A stretch of DNA of 64,000 nt, from positions 1 through 64,000 of the forward strand of contig JALHMY010000008.1 in the NCBI GenBank assembly GCA_022843805.1, read 5' to 3'. Each line of letters starts with the position of its first letter. The stretch's first letter is position 1. This document shows, piece by piece, positions 13,465-64,000 of this stretch. The stretch comes from Fuerstiella sp. (GTDB lineage: Bacteria; Planctomycetota; Planctomycetia; Planctomycetales; Planctomycetaceae). Position numbers and translations under genes: made by a program. The notes below the pieces were generated by a model. The model worked only from the letters and a program-made list of their open reading frames with translations, was not told the origin of the DNA and did not search any database.

Positions 13465-13533
13465 CGAAAGGGCCGAGCGGGAGGTTGACTTAAGAGTGTC
13501 GCCCTTCTTCACTGTTTCCCGCAGAACCTTTTT

Positions 13534-15516
13534 AACCACAGAGAGCACAGAGAACACAGATGAATCGCACGGATGTCTCATGCACGACGCGGGCACTCCG
13601 TAATGGGCGCTGAGCCGTTTGTTACCCACTTCCGGAAGTCTCATTTGGCAGAAAAATTTCAGGGCAGAAAAATGAATCGCAGACGAATGCGGGAGGTTCG
13701 GCGATGTCATCTGCCAGACAGATCTTCTGCTCCGCCCAAATTTTTCTGCCCAAAAAATCTTTCTGCCAACGGCCCTCAGACTGCTCGGACTACCAAACAT
13801 GAACTCGCCGATCCCGCGAAACTCGCTGTGGCCGTTCAACTGCGAATCACGCGCTCGCAGGCCTACCGACTGAGCGACGGTGGGATTCATCCGCGAGATC
13901 CGCGGTTCATTCAACCTGATTTTTAACCACAGAGAGCACAGAGAACACAGATGAATCGCACGGATGTCTCATGCACGACGCGGGCACTCCGTAATGGGCG
14001 CTGAGCCGTTTGTTACCCGATTCCGGAAGTCAGATTTGGCAGAAAAATTTCAGGGCAGAAAAATGAATCGCAGACGAATGCGGGAGGTTCGGCGATATCA
14101 TCTGCCAGACAGATCTTCCGCTCCGCCCAAATTTTTCTGCCCAAAAAATCTTTCTGCCAACGGCCCTCAGACTGCTCGGACTACCAAACATGAACTCGCC
14201 GATCCCGCGAAACTCGCTGTGACCGTTCAACTGCGAATCACGTGCTCGCAGGCAAACTGACTGAGCGACGGTGGGATTCATCCGCGAGATCCGTGGTTCA
14301 TTCAACCTGATTTTTAACCACAGAGAGCACAGAGAGCACAGATGAATCGCACGGATGTCTGATGCGAGACGCGGTCACACCGTAATGGGCGATGAGCCAT
14401 TTGTTACCCAATTCCGGAAGTCGGATTTGGCAGAAAAATTTCAGGGCAGAAAAATGAATCGCAGAGGAATGCGGGATTTTCGGCGATGTCATCTGCCAAA
14501 CAGATCTTCCGTACGGCCAAAAATTTTTCTGCCCCAAAAATCTTTCTGCCAACGGCCCTCAACCAACTCGGACAGCCGAACATGGACTCGCCATTCCCGC
14601 GAAACTCGCTGTGACCGTTCAACTGCGAATCACGCGCTCGCAGGCCTACCCACTGAGCGACGGTGTGATTCATCCGCGATATCCGCGCAATCCGCGGTTC
14701 ATTCAACCTGATTTTTAACCACAGAGAGCACAGAGAACACAGATGAATCGCACGGATGTCTGATGCGTGACGCGGGCACACCGCAATGGGCGCTGAGCCG
14801 TTTGTTACCCGATTCCGGAAGTCAGATTTGGCAGAAAAATTTCAGGGCAGAAAAATGAATCGCAGACGAATGCGGGAGGTTCGGCGATATCATCTGCCAG
14901 ACAGATCTTCCGCTCCGCCCAAATTTTTCTGCCCAAAAAATCTTTCTGCCAACTGCCATCAGACTGCTCGGACTACCAAACATGAACTCGCCGATCCCGC
15001 GAAACTCGCTGTGACCGTTCAACTGCGAATCACGTGCTCGCAGCCAAACTAACAGAGCGACGGTGGGATTCATCCGCGATATCCGCGCAATCCGCGGTTC
15101 ATTCAACCTGATTTTTAACCACAGATATCGCAGAGAACACAGATGAATCGCACGGATGTCTGATGCGTGACGCGGCAGCACCGCAATGGGCGCTGAGCCG
15201 TTTGTTACCCAATTCCGGAAGTCAGATTTGGCAGAAAAATTTCAGGGCAGAAAAATGAATCGCAGACGAATGCGGGATATTCGGCCATGTCATCTGCCAG
15301 ACAGATCTTCCGCTCCGCCCAAATCTTTCTGCCCAAAAAATCTTTCTGCCAACGGCCCTCAGACTGCTCGGACTGCCAAACATGAACTCGCCGATCCCGC
15401 GAAACTCGCTGTGACCGTTCAACTGCGAATCACGCGCTCGCAGGCCTACCGACTGAGCGACAGTGGGATTCATCCGCGATATCCGCGCAATCCGTGGTTC
15501 ATTCAACCTGATTTTT
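13534..15516. repeat. Five tandem copies of a 391-401 bp non-coding unit
   Basis: Units begin at 13534, 13925, 14316, 14717 and 15117 (each at AACCACAG) and end at 15516, with lengths 391, 391, 401, 400 and 400. The 10-base difference lies in the segment before the unit end, where the longer units carry an extra GCGCAATCCG-like stretch. Each unit contains a pair of inverted motifs (GGCAGAAAAATTTC and its near-complement AAATTTTTCTGCC) flanking about 60 bases, plus the CACAGAGAGCACAGAG motif seen as a dispersed repeat in environmental genomes. Each copy leaves open frames on both strands with near-identical peptides, but these follow the repeat and have no protein character. Confidence 0.95.
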
Positions 15517-15731
15517 AACGGGTCTGCGCGAATTGAATTGTGCGGATCGGAATCGTTGTTTAGACCGCTCATGAACACTCATGAACGCTAATAATGGCTC
15601 ATGGTTTCTGAGGTCCGGCCATGGAGTTCCCTCGCTGTTTCATTCGCTTCGCCCTCGGTCGAGCACTTCATTCCGCGCAGAACCACAAAAGCTTCCCCCT
15701 CCGTCCACGTCTCGCCGCCCGTGGGCATGTC

Positions 15732-54036: not shown

Positions 54037-55285
54037 CTACAGGCGTCCTGCCCAACTGCGAGGAGTTTTCTCCGGCTCCATTTCCAGACGAATTCTAATC
54101 GACAGCCGAAAGTCGATAAAGACCGACCACTTCGTCGCGAAAACGCGGCGATTTTCGAAGTTTCCCTTCGGGTACCCAGGAGACTCGTGGATTCCGTCGT
54201 GAGCAGATTTCGCAGGTTGAGCCGCATCGTTGGTCACCACCGACGCAGCAAACAGCCGCTTGCTTCACTGCTCCGGTCCGACACGCTGATCTCGCGTTAA
54301 TCTGATCTGCTGCATCGTTCAAATCTCATCCGGATGCGATGTCAAAAGACGACACAAATCGGGTGGACTTAGCCGCACGAACGCCATGCGGTCGATGTGA
54401 CCGGAGCAGTTTGGGGTGGTGCAAAATGCCTTGCCGGGCGGCCTCACCGAAACAGGAGCGGGCATGAGGTCGAAGTTTACGATCTGTCGGATCGAAGCTT
54501 CGATCCGTGGTATGAATTTGACTCAGGACACGCCGACCTGAGTGAATTGGGCGGGAGCATTTTTACGTTCCGGTCGCGATCTCTCCTTTAGCTTTGCTGC
54601 AGGGAATGTGTCGTCGTTTTGACTGCGGAGCGTGACAGCCCTTCGAAGCGTTGCCGATCAGATTGTCTGGTTTGTCGGTTTGTCGAAACGATGCGTCAAA
54701 AATATCGGTCGCTACCCCGCCTCGGGCTTCACAGTGTGCTTTTTCACAGGGGCGAGGTGACGGCGTTTCCGGCCGTGCATTGCAGCGAGTGTTTCGTCGC
54801 TGATGCACAGAGGTTCGTGTTTGTTTCCTGGATCCGCTGTTGCCGTTAAAACCGTCGGCAGTCTCTCTACCTGTGGAGCTTTGACATGCAGGTGAGGTGT
54901 TCCAGGGGATTGGAACCGAGGAGCGGATGAAGACGTGATGGAACCGGCCAAAGACCGGTCAAACTATCACTTTCCCATACTCTCAAGGGTCACTTCTGTC
55001 TCCGCCACGACTACCTTGCATAGAAGCTCGTTGAGCTGATGGCTGGACAGAGACTCGTCCAGCACGTTAGCAACGTTACTTTGATCCTCAGCTTGTAGAG
55101 ATGCGATCGTTTTGACCCTGGTGAGCTTCCGTGTACCATGCTCTCTCGAAAACAACAGTTGACTGTCACTTCCGCGCCGGCGTTGCCGCAACAGACATAC
55201 CCCAATGGTCGTCGATGTTGCAGCGTCAAAGGCTGACTGCGAACCGCGATTGCGATCTGCAATACCGAATAAAGAGACCTGATTG
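54037..55285. other. 1.25-kb region without a supported gene, with dispersed repeat copy
   Basis: Between the divergent DevC and kinase-TIR genes. It contains the second copy of the dispersed repeat at 54276-54409. Frames at 54397-54591 and 54712-54951 have no recognised domain. The last 300 bases before 55286 should contain the promoter of the kinase-TIR/nSTAND unit, but no clear element was found. Confidence 0.5.
54276..54409. repeat. Dispersed repeat, copy 2
   Basis: A 134-base segment from GTCCGACAC to GGAGCAG, matching 45138-45270 in direct orientation (by eye about three quarters identical, with small indels). It is non-coding in both places. Confidence 0.6.
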
Positions 55286-57766
55286 ATGATCGGAACAACC
55301 GTCAGCCACTATCGCATCACCGCCAGGCTGGGTGCGGGCGGCATGGGGGAAGTGTTTCTGGCCGAAGACACTCGGCTGGGCCGCAAAGCGGCCATCAAGT
55401 TCCTGCCGACGGAGATGGCGAACGACCCGGAGCGGCGACAGAGGTTTCTGAAGGAAGCCCGAGCAGCTTCCGCCCTCAACCATCCGAACGTCTGCATCGT
55501 CTACGACGTCGGTGAAGCAGACAATGGCCTGCCGTTTATTGCCATGGAATATATCGCAGGGGGGTCCCTGGATCATATCCTGAAAAAACGAGGACGCCTG
55601 CCGATCCCGAAGGTTGTTGATCTGGGCGTCCAGGTCGCCGACGCCCTGGACGCCGCTCACAGCAGCAAGATCGTGCACCGGGATATTAAGCCAGCCAACA
55701 TCAGCCTGAATGAACGAGGCCAGGTCAAGGTCCTGGATTTCGGACTGGCCAAACGCCTGGCCATGGAATCCCCCGACGCTTTGGGCACCACAGCTGAGAT
55801 GAAGCAGACCCAGGACGGAGCCGTCATTGGTACGCCACGTTACATGAGTCCCGAGCAGGCCCTCGGAAAGCCGCTCGACCATCGCTCGGATCTGTTCAGC
55901 CTGGGTGTGGTGCTTTACGAACTCATGACTGACCAAGCGCCCTTCGGTGGCAAAAACTTTGCCGAGATCCTGAACAACATCGTGCATTCGCAGCCGACCG
56001 CGATTGCGAGACTCAACTACGATGCGCCGCCGGAACTGGAACGCATCACGCTCAAGTGCCTGCAGAAGTCCCCCGATCGCCGCTATCAGTCGGCTCGCGA
56101 GCTGATGGTCGATTTGAAGAACCTGGCCAGGGAACTCGAGCATGGCCCTGCTGTCGCCGGATCGGCGGTCTTCAGCCGCGGCGAAGCCACGCAGATTTTC
56201 AGGGCCCCTCGTGATGCGCCAGCGCCTGCGGCGGAGCCATTTTCGCTGGAGAAGGTCAAGTCCAGCGACGTACTGCTGAATTATGCGGCGATTGACGACT
56301 ACCCGCTGCAGGATGGCAAGCCCGGCTGGGTATCCCAGCTGCATCGCAATCTGGAAGTGCGGATGGAGCAGTTGTCGGGCGAGAAAGTTCAGATCGCACG
56401 GCTCCCGGAAGATGTCATCACGCCCTTGATGGAAGCCGAACTTCTGCAGCATGTGCCTCAGGCCAAGGCCATGATTTCCGTGGTCTCACCACCATTTGTG
56501 AATTCAGCAGTCTGCCAGCGAGGAGTGTGTGGCTTTTGGGACGGCGCGGAACGAACGGGAGGCCGCTTTATCAAGGACAAATCGCGGCTGCTCAAAGTGC
56601 TCAAGACCTCCGTTGCGGAGCAGCAGATGCCACGCCCGCTGGTCGACATCTTCTCGCCCCTGTCCGGATTTGAGTTCTTCGAACTCGACGCCGACACCGG
56701 CCGCGTCCGCGAGTTTGACGAAACATTCGGGCCGACTCTGAAACAGCGCTTCTTCGAACGGGTCTACGACCTGGCCTACGATGGCTGCCAGGTTCTGAGC
56801 CTGCTCAAACAGTTCCGTGCGAGTGACGTGCCCCAGGCGGTAAATCCTCATCAGCAGTGGGTCTATCTGGCCACAACGACATCCGATGTCTCGGACGAAC
56901 GCGACCGCATCAGGCGGGAACTGCTCGAGCGGGGCCATGTGGTGCTGCCCGATGCACCACTGCCGATGCTGGCGAAAGATGTCGAAGCCGTCATCCGTGA
57001 CTGTCTGGCCAAATGCACCATCGCCGTGCATCTGCTGGGCCAGCGCTACGGTGTCACTCCGGAAGACTCGTCCGAATCGATCCAGGCTCTGCAGGTGCGT
57101 CTGACGGCCGATCGAACTCTCGGGCCCAATCTGCAGCGCCTGATCTGGATGTCGGGAAGCAGTGAGATTGCCGACGAGCGCCAACGCACGTTCGTGCTCC
57201 GTGTGCAGGAAGATCCCGTGCTGCACCATCGTGCCGAGGTCATTGAAGGCAACCTGAACCTGCTCAAGAAGGATCTCATCCGCCGTCTGACACCGCCCGA
57301 AGAAAAACCGAAAGCTCCGACCGCCTCGCGCAGCAATACATCGCCGGGAGGAGCACCCAAGCTGTATTTGATCTGCGACCCGAAAGACGAAGCGGCCATT
57401 GAATCGCTGGAGGATTACCTGTTTGCTCAGGGACTGGAAGTCATGCTCCCTGCGTTCGATGGCGACGATGCCGACGCGGCGGCCCTGCACCAGGACAACC
57501 TGCTGACCTGTGACGCGGTACTGGTTTATTATGGTGCGGCTCCCAAAGCCTGGGTCGATATCAAGCTCCGCGAACTGCTCAAGGCCACCGGCTACGGACG
57601 CCCGGCACCGATCAGCATGCAGGCGGTCTACATCGCGCCGCCGGATGACCGCCGCAAAGAACGGTTTCAGTCGCACCAGGCCAGCGTAATCCGTCAGCCC
57701 GGAGACTTCGAACCGTCTGCGGAACTTGACACCTTCGTCAGTCAGATCCAGGCTGCCAGCATTTAA
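55286..57766 (+). CDS. Ser/Thr kinase fused to TIR-like, DUF4062 and TIR-like domains
   Basis: An 826-residue protein with no membrane helix. The kinase domain (about 8-275) has GAGGMG, Lys38, HRD Asp133 and DFG Asp151. At about 326-500 a TIR-like domain starts with SSDVLLNYAAIDDYPL; the usual catalytic Glu region is replaced by VCQRGVCGFW. At about 523-610 there is a DUF4062 domain (YLATTTSDVSDERDRIRREL, HLLGQRYGVTPED). At about 691-800 a second TIR-like domain has KLYLICDPKDEAAIESLEDY and SQIQAAS at its end. ATG 55286 is used; a TTG at 55283 is possible. Originally its stop lay about 20 bases before the nSTAND/WD40 gene, so they are one operon now split by an inserted cassette. It is likely a signalling or conflict-system protein. 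Confidence 0.85.
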   Translation: MIGTTVSHYRITARLGAGGMGEVFLAEDTRLGRKAAIKFLPTEMANDPERRQRFLKEARAASALNHPNVCIVYDVGEADNGLPFIAMEYIAGGSLDHILKKRGRLPIPKVVDLGVQVADALDAAHSSKIVHRDIKPANISLNERGQVKVLDFGLAKRLAMESPDALGTTAEMKQTQDGAVIGTPRYMSPEQALGKPLDHRSDLFSLGVVLYELMTDQAPFGGKNFAEILNNIVHSQPTAIARLNYDAPPELERITLKCLQKSPDRRYQSARELMVDLKNLARELEHGPAVAGSAVFSRGEATQIFRAPRDAPAPAAEPFSLEKVKSSDVLLNYAAIDDYPLQDGKPGWVSQLHRNLEVRMEQLSGEKVQIARLPEDVITPLMEAELLQHVPQAKAMISVVSPPFVNSAVCQRGVCGFWDGAERTGGRFIKDKSRLLKVLKTSVAEQQMPRPLVDIFSPLSGFEFFELDADTGRVREFDETFGPTLKQRFFERVYDLAYDGCQVLSLLKQFRASDVPQAVNPHQQWVYLATTTSDVSDERDRIRRELLERGHVVLPDAPLPMLAKDVEAVIRDCLAKCTIAVHLLGQRYGVTPEDSSESIQALQVRLTADRTLGPNLQRLIWMSGSSEIADERQRTFVLRVQEDPVLHHRAEVIEGNLNLLKKDLIRRLTPPEEKPKAPTASRSNTSPGGAPKLYLICDPKDEAAIESLEDYLFAQGLEVMLPAFDGDDADAAALHQDNLLTCDAVLVYYGAAPKAWVDIKLRELLKATGYGRPAPISMQAVYIAPPDDRRKERFQSHQASVIRQPGDFEPSAELDTFVSQIQAASI

Positions 57767-58066
57767 TCACGAAAACACGACAGACGAAAACGCGAAATAG
57801 CAAGGGCGAGAAAACATGGCGTATGAATTCGAGGTCTTGTCCGGGAAAATCCTGGAGGCTGCTGTGGCAGTGCATAAAGCTCTGGGGCCGGGCTTTCTCG
57901 AGAGCGTGTATCAAAAGGCCATGGAGGTCGCTTTGCGGCATCGGGAACTGCCCTTTCAGGAACAGAAGGAGATTCACATCAAACGCGAGAAAGAAAGTGA
58001 GTCAAGCATTGGGCATGCATTGGAAGTCTTTGATTTCGTGTTTTCGCCTTTCGTGCTTTCGTGATT
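57765..58066. mobile_element. 302-bp cassette with terminal inverted repeats carrying a GxxExxY fragment
   Basis: The ends are near-perfect inverted repeats: AATCACGAAAACACGAC at 57765 onward pairs with the complement of CTTTCGTGATT-ending sequence at 58032-58066, with about 30 of 34 bases agreeing. The cassette sits directly at the stop codon of the kinase-TIR gene and ends 19 bases before the nSTAND gene. It contains only a truncated GxxExxY frame. No target duplication was identified. Short elements of this type with the same motif are recalled from planctomycete and related genomes, but I cannot search for them. Confidence 0.75.
57816..58064 (+). pseudogene. GxxExxY-family protein, C-terminally truncated
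   Basis: ATG 57816, after AGGGCGAG, encodes 82 residues. The first 56 match the GxxExxY family: LSGKILEAAVAVHKALGPGF, then LESVYQKAMEVALRHRELPF and QEQKEIHIK. GPGFLESVY is the name-giving motif. The rest of the family (about 65 residues with the conserved DLLV..VELK nuclease-like core) is missing; the frame instead runs into the right inverted repeat and stops. The catalytic residues are lost, so it is probably inactive. Confidence 0.7.
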
Positions 58067-58085
58067 GTTGTATTGGATACTCAAG

Positions 58086-61000
58086 ATGAACCCATTTCCC
58101 GGTCTGCGGCCGTTCACGCAGGAAGAAGACTACCTGTTCTTTGGCCGCGAGGAACAGACGCTGGAATTGTTAAAGCGGCTGGGCAGCAATCGATTCGTCG
58201 CCGTCGTGGGCACATCGGGCAGCGGCAAGAGTTCTCTGGTCCGCTGCGGACTGCTCTCCGAACTGCTGGGTGGCCGGATGCTGGGCGCTGGCTCACTCTG
58301 GGAGATTGCGGTCACACATCCCGGCGGGAATCCGCTGGCACTGCTGACCGACTCGCTGCTGGAGGCCGTTCTCTACGATCGCGAGGAAGAGCATGCTCGC
58401 GAAAATCTCCTGGCCACGCTTAGTCGCAGTCACTTCGGTTTGGTCGAAGCGGTCAGGCAGGCCGACCTGGGCGAAGGCACAAATTTCCTGCTGATCGTCG
58501 ACCAGTTCGAGGAAATCTTCCGCTTTCAGGATGCCGGCCAGCGGCAGCAGGAAGTCGCCAACGAATTTGTCAGTTTGTTGCTTGAAGCCGTGGCGCAAAA
58601 GGAAGTGCCGATTTACGTCGTGCTGACCATGCGCTCGGACTTTATCGGCGAGTGTGGCCAGTTCGAAGGCCTGGCCGAGATGGTCAGTCGAGGCGAGTTC
58701 CTGATCCCGCGTCTGACGCGCGAGCAATACAAACGGGTCATCGAAGGTCCGATCAAAGTGGCCGGTGGCCAGATCGCGCCGAGACTGTTGCAGAGGCTGC
58801 TCAACGATCTCGGTCAACAAGCCGATCAGTTGCCCTGCCTGCAGCATGCCCTCATGCGCACGTGGGACGTGTGGGCGCAACGCAGGAAGGATGAAGTCGG
58901 AAGGATGAAGGATGAAACTGCGCCTTCATCCCTGGACATGGATGACTACCAGCGCGTGGGCAGGATGTCGCAGGCATTATCGCTGCACGCCGATGAGATT
59001 TACGAGTCTCTGGCGAGTGATCGTCAGCGGGAATTGTGCAAGGGACTGTTTCAGGCACTGACAGTTGAGGAATCGAACAACCGGGGGATCCGTCGTCCGC
59101 AGCGGCTGGGACGCCTGTGTCAGATTCTGGAGGTTTCCGCCGACGAACTGCGGCCGGTCATCGATGCGTACCGGCAGAGCGGCGTTACGTTTCTGATGCC
59201 GTCGCCCGAAGTCGAGCTGACTGAGCAGACGATCATCGACATTTCGCACGAAAGTTTGATGCGAGTCTGGACGCGACTGCGTCAGTGGGTCGAGGAGGAA
59301 ACGCAGGCCGCCGGCATTTACCATCGTCTGTCCGAAAGCGCCGACCTGCGGGAGCAGGGAAAGGCAGGCTTGTATCGCGACCCTGAGCTGGGCATCGCGC
59401 TGGCGTGGCAGGAAAGCAAACGCCCCAACGCCGCCTGGGCCGAACGCTACCGCCAGGGCTTTGCCCGGGCGATGGCATTTCTTGAGGCCAGCCAACAGGC
59501 GAGCGTCGCCGAAGAACAGTCGCGTGAGGCGACGCGAAAACGCGAGCTGGAACAGACAAAACTGCTCGCCGAGGCTCAGCAACTGCAACTGGACCAGCAG
59601 CAACGCACCGCTCGCCGCATGCGTCGAATCGTTGCAGGTTTCGCCATTGTGGCCGCGATTGCTGTCGGGGCATCGATTGTCGCGGGCCAATTCTGGCAGG
59701 CAGCCAATTTTGCCAGGTTGGATGCCGAACAGAACGCAGAACTCGCAAGAAAAACTGCGACGCTGGCAAGTACGAACGCAGACCTGGCGAAGCAGAACGA
59801 AGCGACGGCCCTGATGGAAGCAATTCGTGCAAACGAACAGACTCGCCTTGCCAAAGTCAACCTGGCCAGGGCCCAACAGGCAGGGCAGGAAGCATCGGAA
59901 CAAAGGGATCGTGCTGACAAACAAGCCCAGGTCGGAAATCTGCGGCTCTATTACGCCCAGATGCATCAGGCCGAGCAGGTGTGGCGGGAAAATCAGGGGT
60001 TAGCCTCAATGCGTGGCATCCTTACAGAATGGTTTCCTCGGACAGACTCGCCTGACCGCCGCGGCTGGGAATGGTTCTATCTCAATTCGCTTCCTTTCCA
60101 AAACCAGGACACATTGAGGGCGAGCGGCCAGGGCACAGACACTATTGTGGCATGGCATAAGGCCAGTAATCGACTCGCTGAAGGGACCGCTGACGGGTTG
60201 ATCCGAATCTGGGATGTCGGTCGCCAGCGAACCACATTGACTTTGATCGGTCCTGGACCAGCTGGCATCTGGTGGGGGAGCAGATGGTTGAACTGGAGCC
60301 CGGACGGCAGTAAATTGGCGGCGGGTTTCAACAACGGAGACGTTCATGTCTGGGAAACGAGTTCCGGAAGTGAAGTCGGTCTCTTTCGCGGGCACGAATC
60401 GGCGATCAGATCAGTTGCTTATAGTTCCGATGGTTCGCGGCTGGCTGCCTGGGGAGATGACGGCAGGATTCTCATCTGGGACGTGAACACAAGTGAGCTG
60501 AATTCGGAGATTGCCCAGCCAGGTACAGTGATGGTAGGGTCATGGAGTCCGGACGACAAGTTCCTCGCCTGTGGACACAGTGACGGATCAGTAAACATCC
60601 TGGACACTCTTTTCGGCGATCAATACGTAACACTGCGGGGGACCAGCATTGGTCCTGTCTACGATTTGGCCTGGAGTCCCGACAGCAGCCGGCTTGCCAC
60701 AACCAATGGGGCTGAAATGGCAGTAAGGATCTGGGACGTCGCCTCGGAAAAAATGGTTGTTGGCCCGCTCCGACACACCCACGGGGTCGTGTCGCTCGCA
60801 TGGGAATCAGACGGGCAGAAACTGGCGGCCGGCGATATGGCCTTTTCTATCAAGATCTGGAACACGAAAACTGGCGGCCTGGACCTCGCTCTGCGAGGAA
60901 ATACAGGCGTCTCTACCTCGCTTGCATGGGGGCCGGATGGCCGTTTGGCTGCCGGGAGCGGTGACGGAACGCTGAAAATCTATGAGACGACGAGCGTTCA

Positions 61001-64000
61001 GGAGTCCAGGATTTTACCCGGACAAGGGGTCGGGGTTCTGCCTGGGTTAGGAATCCGGGCAACGGCGGTGGCCTGGAGTCCCGACGGCAAGCGCCTCGTC
61101 TCCGGCAGCGATGACGGCAGGATCCGGATCTGGGACCCCGCCAGCCGAACCGTGGTTCTCTCAATTGACGCACATGATGTCGGCAAGCTAAGCCCGCAAT
61201 TCGGCCTAATCCGCACTTTGGCCTGGAGTTCGGATGGTACGCGGCTGGCATCGGGCGGACTAGACGGCAGAGTCAGGGTCTGGAAGGCCGGCGATGGGAG
61301 TGAAGTCCTGGCGTTGCCTGACGACCATGGCCCTGTCTGGTCGGTAGCCTGGAGTCCGGACGGAACCCAACTGGCTGCCAGCTGTCAGAACGGGACAATT
61401 CGGGTTGTCGAAGGGCTGATTCCGACTTCAAGGGAATATGCATTCAAGGCCCATGAACATACGTGGGTGGGTGCCCGTACGTTGGCCTGGAGTCCAAAGG
61501 GGGATTCCCTGGCCTCCGGTGGCGAGGACGGGTTGGTGAAAATTTGGGATCCAACTGGTGGGGTCGAGCGAGCGCGGATGCAAGTTCAGGAAACGGTCTC
61601 AAGTGTGGCGTGGAGCCCCGATGGCAAGTGGTTGGCATCAACAGATCTAAACGCTCTCGTCACTACCTGGGATGCTGCGGCAGCCAATAAGATTTCGACA
61701 TTGCGTAGTCATTCCAGCTGGGTGGAAGCTGTCGTTTGGAGTCCAGACGGTACGCGGCTGGCGTCCTGTGGACTCGATAACACTGTAAGAATTTCGGATC
61801 CGAACCTGGGTGAGGAGACCCTTGTACTCCGCGGTAACGCGGGATGGTTCCACGACATCTCCTGGCACCCTGACGGGTCGCAGATCGCCGCAGCGAGCAG
61901 CGACGGTCAGATCTGGATCTGGGACGCGACGCGTGGTTTCGAGCGGGACACCACGCCGCGGGCCTTGCCGTACATCGATCGTAAGGTCGCCTCCGGCACC
62001 GCATACGGCGAGGACCGCAGTTGGTTTGTGGAGTCCTACATCCGGGCCGGCAGGCTCAGGGAAGCCCTGGCCCTGCTGATGAAAAGTGAACAGGACAAAA
62101 CCGGAAACATGCTGCGCGCCAGGATCATCGCAGCGGCTGCGCTGCTACCAGGGCTACTTGCAGAGCTGGCCGAGTCGGCCTCCGATGATGGACAGTTCCA
62201 GGCCGAGGTGGCTCGTCATTTTGCCGACAATGGCGACATGAAGCAGGCCAGCGCGGCGCACAGCGCCGCCCGTAAGTTATTCGAGCAGCAACTGACAAAG
62301 GAACCGGAGAACTCATCCCTGGCAGGCGAGTTGGCCGACCTGCTGATTCAAATGAACTCAGGCGAATGGACGACGCTCAGTCCGGTGGACATGAAATCGG
62401 TAAAGGGGGCAACTTTGACGGTGCAGGGCGACGATTCAATCCTGGCGTCCGGAGCCAATATCGAAGGGGATGTTTACAGGATTTCTGCGGTTGGCCCTCT
62501 TGACCGCATCGCCGCGGTTCGGCTCGAAGTGCTGCCTGACGCCAGCTTACCGAGCAAGGGCTCCGGACGACACGATTCAGGTAATTTCCATCTCCGCGAG
62601 TTTCGCCTCTACCAGGCATCGGATGACGGAGAAAATGGACTCCGGCCCGTGCCGGTGGGAAGCGCCTGGACGAGTTACATCTGGAATGCGCCGGATACCG
62701 ATATCGCCGGAACAATCGACACAGGTCTGAACAAGGACTGGCATGTCTGGGGGCGTACCGGCGAAGCCCATCAGGCGGTCTTCCTTCTGCGAGAGCCGGT
62801 CCCCGCTCAAAATCGGCAATTCGTCATCGAGTTGCGTCAATCGCATAATCTGGGCCGCTTCCGCCTGTCGGTCAGCGCCGCCCCCACGATCTTCAAACGT
62901 GAGCAGGAACGCCTTGCGGCAATGAAAATCACCGATCCCTGGGCCAGGCTCGCTGCAGCGTACTTGCTGGCCAGCGATACGGATCGTGCAGCCGATCTGC
63001 TGGTGAAATCGATGGAGAAACAGGGGATCGCGGCATGGCTCGATAACAGCATGTTGATCAACGACGTCCTCGATTCACTCCAGTCCAGGCACCCTGATCT
63101 CTACGCGACTCTGTTGCCAGACGCGGCGAGCGCCGCCGTTGAACGAAGGCAGATGGATCTGGCGCGGACCCTGTACGATCGGCTCGTGAAGTTGCAGCCG
63201 GAGAACGCGTTGTGGAGTGAGCGTACGGGGCAACTCCAGCCGGATGTGCTCGCGGTCTGGAATTTCGACACTGGCGCCGGACTATGGGGAGCCAGCCGAA
63301 ATTGTGACCTCTCGGTGAAAGACGGCGTGCTTACCGCGTTAACAACCGGCGACGATCCCAGCTTCAAGTCACCAGCCAGCGGGCCGGCTGGCGGCAAAGC
63401 CATCGTCCTGCGATATCGCGCTGACGAAGCTTTCACCATGCAGATCTTCTGGGCCGATTCGTCGGGTGGTTTCGCAGAGGCCCGTCATCTGGACTACCCA
63501 ATCCCGGTGTCCTCGGGTGAATGGGCGGAGATCACACTGCCATTCTGGTGCCAGGGGACACTGAACACTCTGCGGCTGCACCCCAATACTGCGAGCGAGC
63601 ATCCGCTGGAAATCGATTCCATCGTGTTGCAGAATTTCGAGTCCACCGAAGCCTGGAGTTCGGACGCCTGGATGCGGATCATCCAGCAACAACCTGGCAT
63701 GACACAAACCGCCTTCGATTTCTTCAGGCAGACCGAACGCTGGAATGAGGCAGCCCCGTTTGGCTTGAAGCTGGTCGAGCAGAATCCGGAAGACACGCTC
63801 ATGTGGCTTCGAATTGCGGCGGTACTTGCGTTGACCGACGATCCGACTGCTTATTCCGATTTCTGCGGTCGCATGGTGCAGCACTTTGCGGAATCAAAAA
63901 AACCTGAAACCGCCGAGCGGGTCGTCAAGGCTTCTCTGTTGCGAGCCGACTCAATCGACCTCGCGAAACTTCCCGGGGACCTGCTCGCCAAATCGCTGAA
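58086..64000 (+). CDS. Giant nSTAND NTPase / WD40 protein, incomplete at window end
   Basis: One open frame from ATG 58086 to the last base (over 1970 residues, no stop in the window; frame checked at several points). It starts with the nSTAND module NPFPGLRPFTQEEDYLFFGR, Walker A GTSGSGKSS at residue 42 and Walker B LLIVDQFEE with Asp139. Winged-helix-like regions follow to about residue 440. Around 460-600 a coiled coil surrounds a membrane helix (about 515-535, RIVAGFAIVAAIAVGASIVA). From about 685 to 1285 there are 14 WD40 repeats (AWSPDG.RLASG pattern), enough for two seven-bladed propellers. Beyond are TPR-like helices and two beta domains (LEVLPDASLPSKGSGRH). It is the effector/sensor partner candidate of the kinase-TIR gene. 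Confidence 0.88.
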   Translation, partial: MNPFPGLRPFTQEEDYLFFGREEQTLELLKRLGSNRFVAVVGTSGSGKSSLVRCGLLSELLGGRMLGAGSLWEIAVTHPGGNPLALLTDSLLEAVLYDREEEHARENLLATLSRSHFGLVEAVRQADLGEGTNFLLIVDQFEEIFRFQDAGQRQQEVANEFVSLLLEAVAQKEVPIYVVLTMRSDFIGECGQFEGLAEMVSRGEFLIPRLTREQYKRVIEGPIKVAGGQIAPRLLQRLLNDLGQQADQLPCLQHALMRTWDVWAQRRKDEVGRMKDETAPSSLDMDDYQRVGRMSQALSLHADEIYESLASDRQRELCKGLFQALTVEESNNRGIRRPQRLGRLCQILEVSADELRPVIDAYRQSGVTFLMPSPEVELTEQTIIDISHESLMRVWTRLRQWVEEETQAAGIYHRLSESADLREQGKAGLYRDPELGIALAWQESKRPNAAWAERYRQGFARAMAFLEASQQASVAEEQSREATRKRELEQTKLLAEAQQLQLDQQQRTARRMRRIVAGFAIVAAIAVGASIVAGQFWQAANFARLDAEQNAELARKTATLASTNADLAKQNEATALMEAIRANEQTRLAKVNLARAQQAGQEASEQRDRADKQAQVGNLRLYYAQMHQAEQVWRENQGLASMRGILTEWFPRTDSPDRRGWEWFYLNSLPFQNQDTLRASGQGTDTIVAWHKASNRLAEGTADGLIRIWDVGRQRTTLTLIGPGPAGIWWGSRWLNWSPDGSKLAAGFNNGDVHVWETSSGSEVGLFRGHESAIRSVAYSSDGSRLAAWGDDGRILIWDVNTSELNSEIAQPGTVMVGSWSPDDKFLACGHSDGSVNILDTLFGDQYVTLRGTSIGPVYDLAWSPDSSRLATTNGAEMAVRIWDVASEKMVVGPLRHTHGVVSLAWESDGQKLAAGDMAFSIKIWNTKTGGLDLALRGNTGVSTSLAWGPDGRLAAGSGDGTLKIYETTSVQESRILPGQGVGVLPGLGIRATAVAWSPDGKRLVSGSDDGRIRIWDPASRTVVLSIDAHDVGKLSPQFGLIRTLAWSSDGTRLASGGLDGRVRVWKAGDGSEVLALPDDHGPVWSVAWSPDGTQLAASCQNGTIRVVEGLIPTSREYAFKAHEHTWVGARTLAWSPKGDSLASGGEDGLVKIWDPTGGVERARMQVQETVSSVAWSPDGKWLASTDLNALVTTWDAAAANKISTLRSHSSWVEAVVWSPDGTRLASCGLDNTVRISDPNLGEETLVLRGNAGWFHDISWHPDGSQIAAASSDGQIWIWDATRGFERDTTPRALPYIDRKVASGTAYGEDRSWFVESYIRAGRLREALALLMKSEQDKTGNMLRARIIAAAALLPGLLAELAESASDDGQFQAEVARHFADNGDMKQASAAHSAARKLFEQQLTKEPENSSLAGELADLLIQMNSGEWTTLSPVDMKSVKGATLTVQGDDSILASGANIEGDVYRISAVGPLDRIAAVRLEVLPDASLPSKGSGRHDSGNFHLREFRLYQASDDGENGLRPVPVGSAWTSYIWNAPDTDIAGTIDTGLNKDWHVWGRTGEAHQAVFLLREPVPAQNRQFVIELRQSHNLGRFRLSVSAAPTIFKREQERLAAMKITDPWARLAAAYLLASDTDRAADLLVKSMEKQGIAAWLDNSMLINDVLDSLQSRHPDLYATLLPDAASAAVERRQMDLARTLYDRLVKLQPENALWSERTGQLQPDVLAVWNFDTGAGLWGASRNCDLSVKDGVLTALTTGDDPSFKSPASGPAGGKAIVLRYRADEAFTMQIFWADSSGGFAEARHLDYPIPVSSGEWAEITLPFWCQGTLNTLRLHPNTASEHPLEIDSIVLQNFESTEAWSSDAWMRIIQQQPGMTQTAFDFFRQTERWNEAAPFGLKLVEQNPEDTLMWLRIAAVLALTDDPTAYSDFCGRMVQHFAESKKPETAERVVKASLLRADSIDLAKLPGDLLAKSL

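Follow-up and report, generated by a model that had tools for sequence, protein, structure and literature searches.

The first 64,000 nucleotides of contig JALHMY010000008.1 of Fuerstiella sp. (assembly GCA_022843805.1), here referred to as the window, contain a 302-base cassette in which a truncated gene of the GxxExxY family is enclosed by two inverted arms. The cassette separates a kinase gene from a STAND gene. It is probably a dead, internally truncated copy of an element composed of an inverted arm, a GxxExxY gene, and a second inverted arm, belonging to a REPtron-like system of mobile repeats served by a PD-(D/E)XK nuclease. Small mobile GxxExxY elements of this kind, built from short sequence words, are widespread and apparently undescribed. 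The features of the locus are:

55283..57766, forward strand: upstream host gene, a Ser/Thr kinase that also contains DUF4062 and matches TIR_2 below threshold; its stop codon abuts the left arm
57765..58066, forward strand: whole cassette, 302 bases, missing from the orthologous junction in the related genome G011 (locus L105)
57765..57798, forward strand: left inverted arm with four CACGAAA-type word-like units
57768-57774 CACGAAA, 57776-57782 CACGACA, 57783-57789 GACGAAA, 57791-57797 CGCGAAA: units of the left arm
57816..58064, forward strand: truncated GxxExxY (PDDEXK_3) gene, N-terminal half, without the D..ExK..Q part of the active site
58033..58066, reverse strand: right inverted arm, the same word on the opposite strand
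58086..63998, forward strand: downstream host gene, an nSTAND1 NTPase with WD40 repeats, continuing past the window end

The arms of the cassette are 34 nucleotides long, 88% complementary (30/34), and separated by 234 nucleotides. Their local-alignment score of 48 was reached by none of 1000 dinucleotide shuffles, which had a maximum of 30. The TAA stop codon of the kinase gene (57764-57766) extends over the first two bases of the left arm, and the right arm is followed, after a spacer of 19 nucleotides (58067-58085), by the ATG of the STAND gene at position 58086. An earlier note on this DNA had described 34-base inverted repeats with about 30 matches, placed at the stop codon of the kinase-TIR gene and 19 bases before the next gene; both the repeats and their placement agree with the coordinates given here. 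A TTG at position 58065 is an alternative in-frame start of the STAND gene, and the TGA of the cassette open reading frame (58062-58064) directly precedes it. It is possible that the cassette keeps the translation of the kinase and STAND genes coupled.

The open reading frame of the cassette (57816-58064) encodes 82 amino acids. It matches profile TIGR04256 with 53.9 bits (curated cut-off 35) over positions 3-54 of 116, and PF13366 with 54 bits (cut-off 22) over positions 3-55 of 117. The matches cover the N-terminal half only, as expected from the truncated GxxExxY gene that the earlier note had recognized. The fragment stops before D73, in the numbering of protein P0001, and the complete active site (D73, E83, and K85) is not present.

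An empty site was found in a comparison of 59 related genomes, the window's own included. In G011 (contig C411, L105), a kinase with an 84% identical C-terminal part precedes the same STAND gene. The cassette is missing there, and the stop codon of the kinase overlaps the start codon of the STAND gene in the sequence ATGA. The kinase tail and the STAND start diverge around this junction, where the exact breakpoints are unreadable. Either the cassette entered an overlapping-gene junction in the lineage of the window, or it was cleanly lost in the other lineage; entry would be the simpler explanation given the arms. Because the two genes overlap without the cassette in G011, they were once directly adjacent, in agreement with the suggestion of the earlier note, which had proposed this comparison. 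The cassette is a mark of this earlier state, in which the kinase-TIR and STAND genes were neighbours that overlapped and were co-translated.

Inverted arms are found throughout most of the GxxExxY loci that were compared. PF13366 is present in 33 of the 59 relatives and in 184 of 392 genomes across the phylum. In the arm test, the upstream flank of a gene was aligned to the reverse complement of its downstream flank, with arms located within 300 nucleotides of the gene. Among 95 of 97 fetched planctomycete loci (L016 and L027 were left out because of short flanks), an inverted-repeat score of at least 28 was reached by 68, compared with 48/950 mismatched flank pairs and 6/200 windows of ordinary sequence. 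A score of at least 40 was reached by 49/95 loci, 6/950 mismatched pairs, and 1/200 windows. The nearer relatives of the target protein, with L117 and L129 left out, have arms at a score of at least 28 in 22 of 27 loci. A set of 80 loci from named genomes, two of which were left out because of short flanks, represents by record title Acidobacteria, Chloroflexota, Cyanobacteria, Verrucomicrobia, Bacteroidota, Proteobacteria, Spirochaetota, and others. In this set, 63/78 loci scored at least 28 and 41/78 at least 40, against 10/280 and 0/280 shifted windows in the same loci. Mismatched pairs of the named genomes were also raised (121/780 at 28), which is expected because many of the elements share the word CACRGAG and the query group is of that type. 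A score of at least 30 was found in 72 of 83 further loci. The single archaeal locus sampled (L158) has no arms (score 17), and arms at a score of at least 28 occur in 0/3 loci of tandem-domain GxxExxY proteins (L007, L008, and L032). These tandem-domain proteins may represent a branch that left the mobile state.

Intact arms consist of approximately three copies of a 7-nucleotide word, spaced about one helical turn apart. The word varies between elements and agrees between the two arms of an element; examples are CACGGAG, CACAGAT, CGCCAAG, CGCAAAG, CACGAAT, and CACGAAA, and exceptions include CCAGGAA and GGGGGAA. As located by an automatic picker that, when units tie, prefers C at positions 1 and 3 and A at position 6, the unit recurs at steps of 8-11 nucleotides and fits CRCNRAD in 112 of 148 elements. 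Arms with four CACGAAA-type units are common to the cassette and to its relatives L042, L110, and L111, which contain longer GxxExxY genes. The earlier note had proposed to look for full-length versions with the same ends; these longer genes with arms of the same type, together with the occurrence of arms family-wide (68/95 and 63/78), are in line with its description of the cassette as non-autonomous.

The position of the cassette is typical of GxxExxY elements. In a survey of 91 elements with clear arms, based on open reading frames of 100 codons and without a distance control, a co-directional reading frame ends within 150 nucleotides before the left arm in 74 and within 15 nucleotides in 44, and 38 elements lie between a stop (at most 30 nucleotides away) and a start (at most 40 nucleotides away). 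Different occupancy states of one site were found in the genus g53, in the gap that separates miaA from the gene after it, which we take from its sequence to be mqnD (10 of 15 loci inspected, seven printed in full). Arms are missing from the gap in G105 and G431. G434 has a single palindrome there and G347 a degenerate one, and in G126, G441, and G427 the gap contains a GxxExxY gene between two palindromes. The gene of G126 is opposite in direction to both of its neighbours. In our reading of the alignment, the solo palindrome of G434 corresponds to the start of the first and the inside of the second palindrome of G427, as would be expected from a deletion between repeats, similar to the formation of a solo long terminal repeat. 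The Bacteroidaceae elements L187 (1911-2400) and L201 (1910-2440) apparently occupy the same junction of two metabolic genes, which may indicate an old insertion or a hot spot. The cassette DNA had no match among plasmids. GxxExxY genes occur in eight plasmid records, none of which is useful for empty sites; one is located in a radA-FAD gene junction and has textbook arms. No GxxExxY gene was confirmed in viral contigs.

The words also occur as repeats without a gene. The doublet CACGAAA-N(1-4)-CACGAAA is present once in the window's own genome (G000), in the right arm of the cassette, 37 times in G001 from the same genus, and 38 times in G011. A search of the own genome for TTTCGTGNTTTCGTG with one mismatch gave six places, two of them in the cassette, compared with three for the reversed control, and no dispersed family. 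The search for the repeat that the earlier note had suggested revealed copies of the doublet in the relatives and, in its own genome, only the one in the cassette. Because the doublet is found nowhere else in the genome and the gene lacks its catalytic half, the cassette copy is stranded. The other GxxExxY genes of G000 sit among words of the types CACAGAG, CGCAAAG, AACAGAG, and CACAGAT, and no intact one seems to match the word of the cassette. The words also occur far from any GxxExxY gene and greatly exceed the reversed-pattern control: doublets of CACAGAT number 157 in G000, compared with 0 for the control. The dispersed copies that were fetched are composed of two facing arms over some 30-130 nucleotides. 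In G035, pairs of CACGAATTTTCACGAAT recur at a constant offset of 99 nucleotides in many places, like a recently amplified miniature inverted-repeat transposable element (MITE).

The repeats without genes are linked to GxxExxY genes with the same word. In a pilot count over the 59 genomes, the words CGCCAAG (genes in G024, G018, and G053) and CACGAAT (G035, G026, and G006) were chosen from gene-flanking arms before counting. The top two genomes for CGCCAAG doublets are G024 (56) and G018 (45), followed by G033 (17), and for CACGAAT doublets G035 is first (336) and G026 third (64). The genomes richest in CACAGAT are G000 and G033, the two that have an exactly matching gene. The exact-word linkage is significant for CACAGAT and CACGAAA and rests on two and three linked genomes, respectively, with the linked gene of G011 (L265) outside the table. 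The word-gene link between genomes is strong, but not exclusive. The earlier note had stated that its proposal would fail if the repeat occurred alone at random loci, with no link to GxxExxY genes, and if relatives had no empty site; gene-less repeats do occur, but with a link to GxxExxY genes, and G011 provides an empty site.

Within the window, a 630-step scan gave scores matching those of the cassette arms only in a repeat array near 14.2-14.6 kb. The region 13520-15520 contains approximately five tandem copies of a 391-401-nucleotide unit with word-like arms at its bounds (TTTTTAACCACAGAGAGCACAGAGAACACAGATG ... ATCCGCGAGATCCGCGGTT), and each unit holds a second, inner inverted pair of GGCAGAAAAAT words. 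This is a second word-palindrome array in the window, without a gene. The STAND gene contains, at about 58891-58937, an in-frame and partly palindromic stretch of GGATGAA words (KDEVGRMKDE...), which is missing in the ortholog in L105. With one mismatch, GGATGAAGGATGAA occurs 13 times in the genome, compared with 0 for the control, and 5 of the 13 occurrences are on contig C114.

Recognition of the word by the GxxExxY protein is well supported by covariation. A tree of 129 proteins, from about 205 loci, was compared with the words of their elements, 22 of which were assigned by eye. Related proteins on the tree tend to share letters 2, 4, 5, and 7 of their words, with 0/300 shuffles reaching the same degree of clustering for each; letter 7 changes 11 times compared with a shuffle mean of 29.4, and letter 5 changes 21 times compared with 32.9. 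Letter 5 covaries with residue 13 and then with residue 14, both in the first helix. Threonine at residue 13 is associated with G at letter 5 (64/64), alanine, cysteine, or valine with A (17/17), and serine with either. Asparagine at residue 25 is associated with T at letter 7 (14/14). No clear protein column was found for letters 2 and 4. These residue rules were fixed before 89 further loci were taken, for which the words were called automatically; 64 loci were used after the removal of three duplicates, three loci without the motif, 11 with an inverted-repeat score below 30, and eight without a CRCNRAD word. In the new loci, threonine 13 predicts G in 34/35 and alanine, cysteine, or valine predicts A in 5/5, whereas at letter 7 asparagine 25 predicts T in 11/12 and arginine or lysine predicts a letter other than T in 45/46. 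The Fisher p values, which ignore kinship, are 3.6e-8 and 1.2e-9, and the counts for one member per 60% cluster are 17/17 against 3/10 of the others and 8/9 against 2/18. For letter 5, the two highest-ranking columns in the new set are once more residues 14 and 13. The target protein, with serine 13 and, by position, lysine 25 and the word CACGAAA, is consistent with the rules and does not test them.

The GxxExxY product is predicted to have a minimal Cas4/RecB-like nuclease fold. An AlphaFold2 model calculated from 56 aligned homologues (alignment A2, in which 56 of 80 were used, with L166 and L178 among those left out) has a predicted local distance difference test score of 96.2. Its best solved match is Cas4 SSO0001 (4ic1), with Z 10.1 over 99 residues and a root-mean-square deviation of 3.2, and this is the only chain with Z of at least 8; the Foldseek E value of the match is 7.8e-4. 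Cas4 sequence profiles also match the protein (PADLOC, E 3.9e-5; PF01930, E 4e-4, just under its cut-off), and no solved relative was found by sequence at E<=1. RNA- and tRNA-splicing endonucleases are listed by Foldseek at ranks 13 and 16-18, weaker than Cas4. The residues conserved in alignment A2 (E33, Y36, D73, E83, K85, and Q97) fit a PD-(D/E)XK nuclease.

In the proposed mechanism, the nuclease would bind its own word in the arms through the N-terminal helix, as a multimer over three units, and would cut or pair the mirrored arms. The element, together with gene-less palindromes of the same word acting in trans, would spread to gene junctions through repair, and repair or recombination between arms would then yield solo palindromes. 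Cleavage by GxxExxY is suggested by the fold and motifs, and the linkage and the presence or absence of elements suggest that GxxExxY drives the spread; direct binding and the route of insertion are inferred. A bolder formulation, plausible but more tentative, is that GxxExxY proteins drive a class of mobile DNA of their own. They would be Cas4-like nucleases acting alone, each with a private 7-nucleotide word, about three per arm, that is read through a partly readable code in the first helix (threonine 13 for G, alanine, cysteine, or valine for A at letter 5). With no classical transposase involved, they would seed bacterial genomes with mirrored palindromes of the word at the junctions of genes.

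Several observations weigh against the interpretation of the cassette as a remnant of a nuclease-served mobile system. Among the genomes predicted from their genes to be rich in a word, G053 holds only two CGCCAAG doublets and G006 four CACGAAT doublets. Conversely, G004 holds 123 CACGAAT doublets without such a gene among its matches, and G023 holds 17 CACAGAT doublets and no PF13366 match; the simple model leaves these doublets without a same-word gene unexplained. Dispersed palindromes often vary in their interiors from copy to copy, unlike fresh MITEs. A target-site duplication was not found in the 91 elements, in which the longest common substring of the outer 12-mers averages 3.09, compared with 2.99 for mismatched ends. 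In the new set of loci, many columns surpass residue 25 as predictors of letter 7; the rule for this residue is inseparable from a clade effect and may be a clade mark. Phylogeny-corrected tests have too few pairs on supported branches to reach significance (median p 0.125-0.25), with no contrary pair among the tests listed. The mobility proposed in the earlier note is supported by presence or absence between relatives and by dispersal, whereas transposition, like binding and cleavage, is inferred rather than observed.

The arms could alternatively be MITE-like ends that are moved by an unrelated transposase, with GxxExxY as a frequent cargo only. In favour of this explanation, most dispersed copies have no gene, and the word-rich genomes G004 and G023 have no matching GxxExxY. 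However, GxxExxY is the gene found between the arms in many phyla, and a second gene of ordinary size would not fit between arms that, by the design of the test, lie at most 300 nucleotides from the gene. Cargo status would also not explain why the word tracks the protein tree and why letter 5 of further loci is predictable from residue 13, and the target-site duplication typical of DDE transposases is missing. This explanation is therefore unlikely. It is still less likely that the elements function in RNA, with the arms pairing as a stem in the transcript, as in the intervening sequences of 23S ribosomal RNA (rRNA), GxxExxY acting on RNA, and ordinary recombination providing the spread. Inverted arms are able to pair in RNA, 44/91 elements lie within 15 nucleotides of a co-directional stop in operon junctions, as counted without a distance control, and RNA-splicing endonucleases appear in the Foldseek list at ranks 13 and 16-18. 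By contrast, the best structural match is to the DNA nuclease family Cas4, the profiles of which also match in sequence; solo palindromes are located between genes in many places; and the gene of G126 runs opposite to both neighbours.

A marginally less probable explanation again is that the words are sites of a chromosomal function, such as regulation, repair, or defence, and that GxxExxY is a domesticated nuclease. Repetitive extragenic palindromic (REP) repeats are known to be co-opted, and the copies of a word can reach hundreds, as do the 336 doublets of G035. Against this explanation, the system is patchy among relatives within one genus and restricted to 184/392 genomes of the phylum, a single genome can contain several different words, and there are truncated copies such as the cassette of the window. 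Nothing was found in favour of a decayed gene that is enclosed by an inverted repeat merely by chance. This candidate was rejected as barely credible, based on the 0/1000 shuffles, the empty site in G011, and the arm type shared with L042, L110, and L111. The reading of the cassette as a dead copy from a nuclease-served, REPtron-like system is thus preferred.

GxxExxY genes have been annotated in large numbers without a function. If the preferred reading is true, a single idea accounts both for this gene family and for many of the short repeats of environmental bacteria that have lacked an explanation, and it assigns the repeats to their genes. A nuclease with a target word partly predictable from one or two residues would be directly testable at the bench. 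How a mobile system could operate without a known transposase would be a new question of mechanism. Within the library covered, searches of the literature for GxxExxY, PF13366/TIGR04256, and six word doublets of 15-16 nucleotides found no description of the element, although a comment in an NCBI family record may exist. PMC8934634, which mentions GxxExxY, is not about such elements.

Among known systems, the 23S rRNA intervening sequences with an S23/four-helix-bundle reading frame, as outlined in PMC4990558, likewise consist of a small reading frame enclosed by complementary ends and located at an unusual intervening position; however, the cassette is located in a junction of protein genes, and the protein families are unrelated. 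The elements resemble MITEs and insertion sequences in their short inverted ends, in having gene-bearing and gene-less versions, and in their internally truncated copies, and differ from them in the lack of a transposase and of a target-site duplication in 91 elements. The fold and motifs are like those of Cas4/RecB-like nucleases (4ic1, Z 10.1; PADLOC Cas4, E 3.9e-5). Unlike Cas4, P0001 (132 amino acids) has a single cysteine and therefore no four-cysteine iron-sulfur site. As far as the analysis reached, the elements are not casposons either: the arms lie at most 300 nucleotides from the gene and leave no room for Cas1, at which no search was aimed.

The closest parallel is provided by REPtrons, the system of REP-associated tyrosine transposases (RAYTs), REPs, and REP doublets forming hairpins (REPINs), together with TIRtrons and their TIRYT genes. 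Sections of PMC3733652 describe REPtrons as a small gene between inverted repeats, further copies of which are scattered without the gene, either alone or paired as palindromes, with several types of repeats and genes per genome and a patchy distribution between relatives; REPINs and RAYTs are the subject of PMC3116915 and PMC2817692. RAYTs are HUH/Y1 tyrosine transposases, whereas GxxExxY is a PD-(D/E)XK protein and so not a REPtron member. The arms of GxxExxY elements are tandem 7-nucleotide words, whereas REPs are hairpins with a GTAG foot; this foot was not seen as a rule in 91 pairs of edges read by eye, although the palindromes of the genus g53 end in GGTAG. Unlike the repeats of a REPtron, the word of the cassette is not dispersed in its own genome. 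In the GxxExxY family as a whole, however, the arrangement typical of REPtrons is found: inverted repeats flank the gene and also recur elsewhere in the genome.

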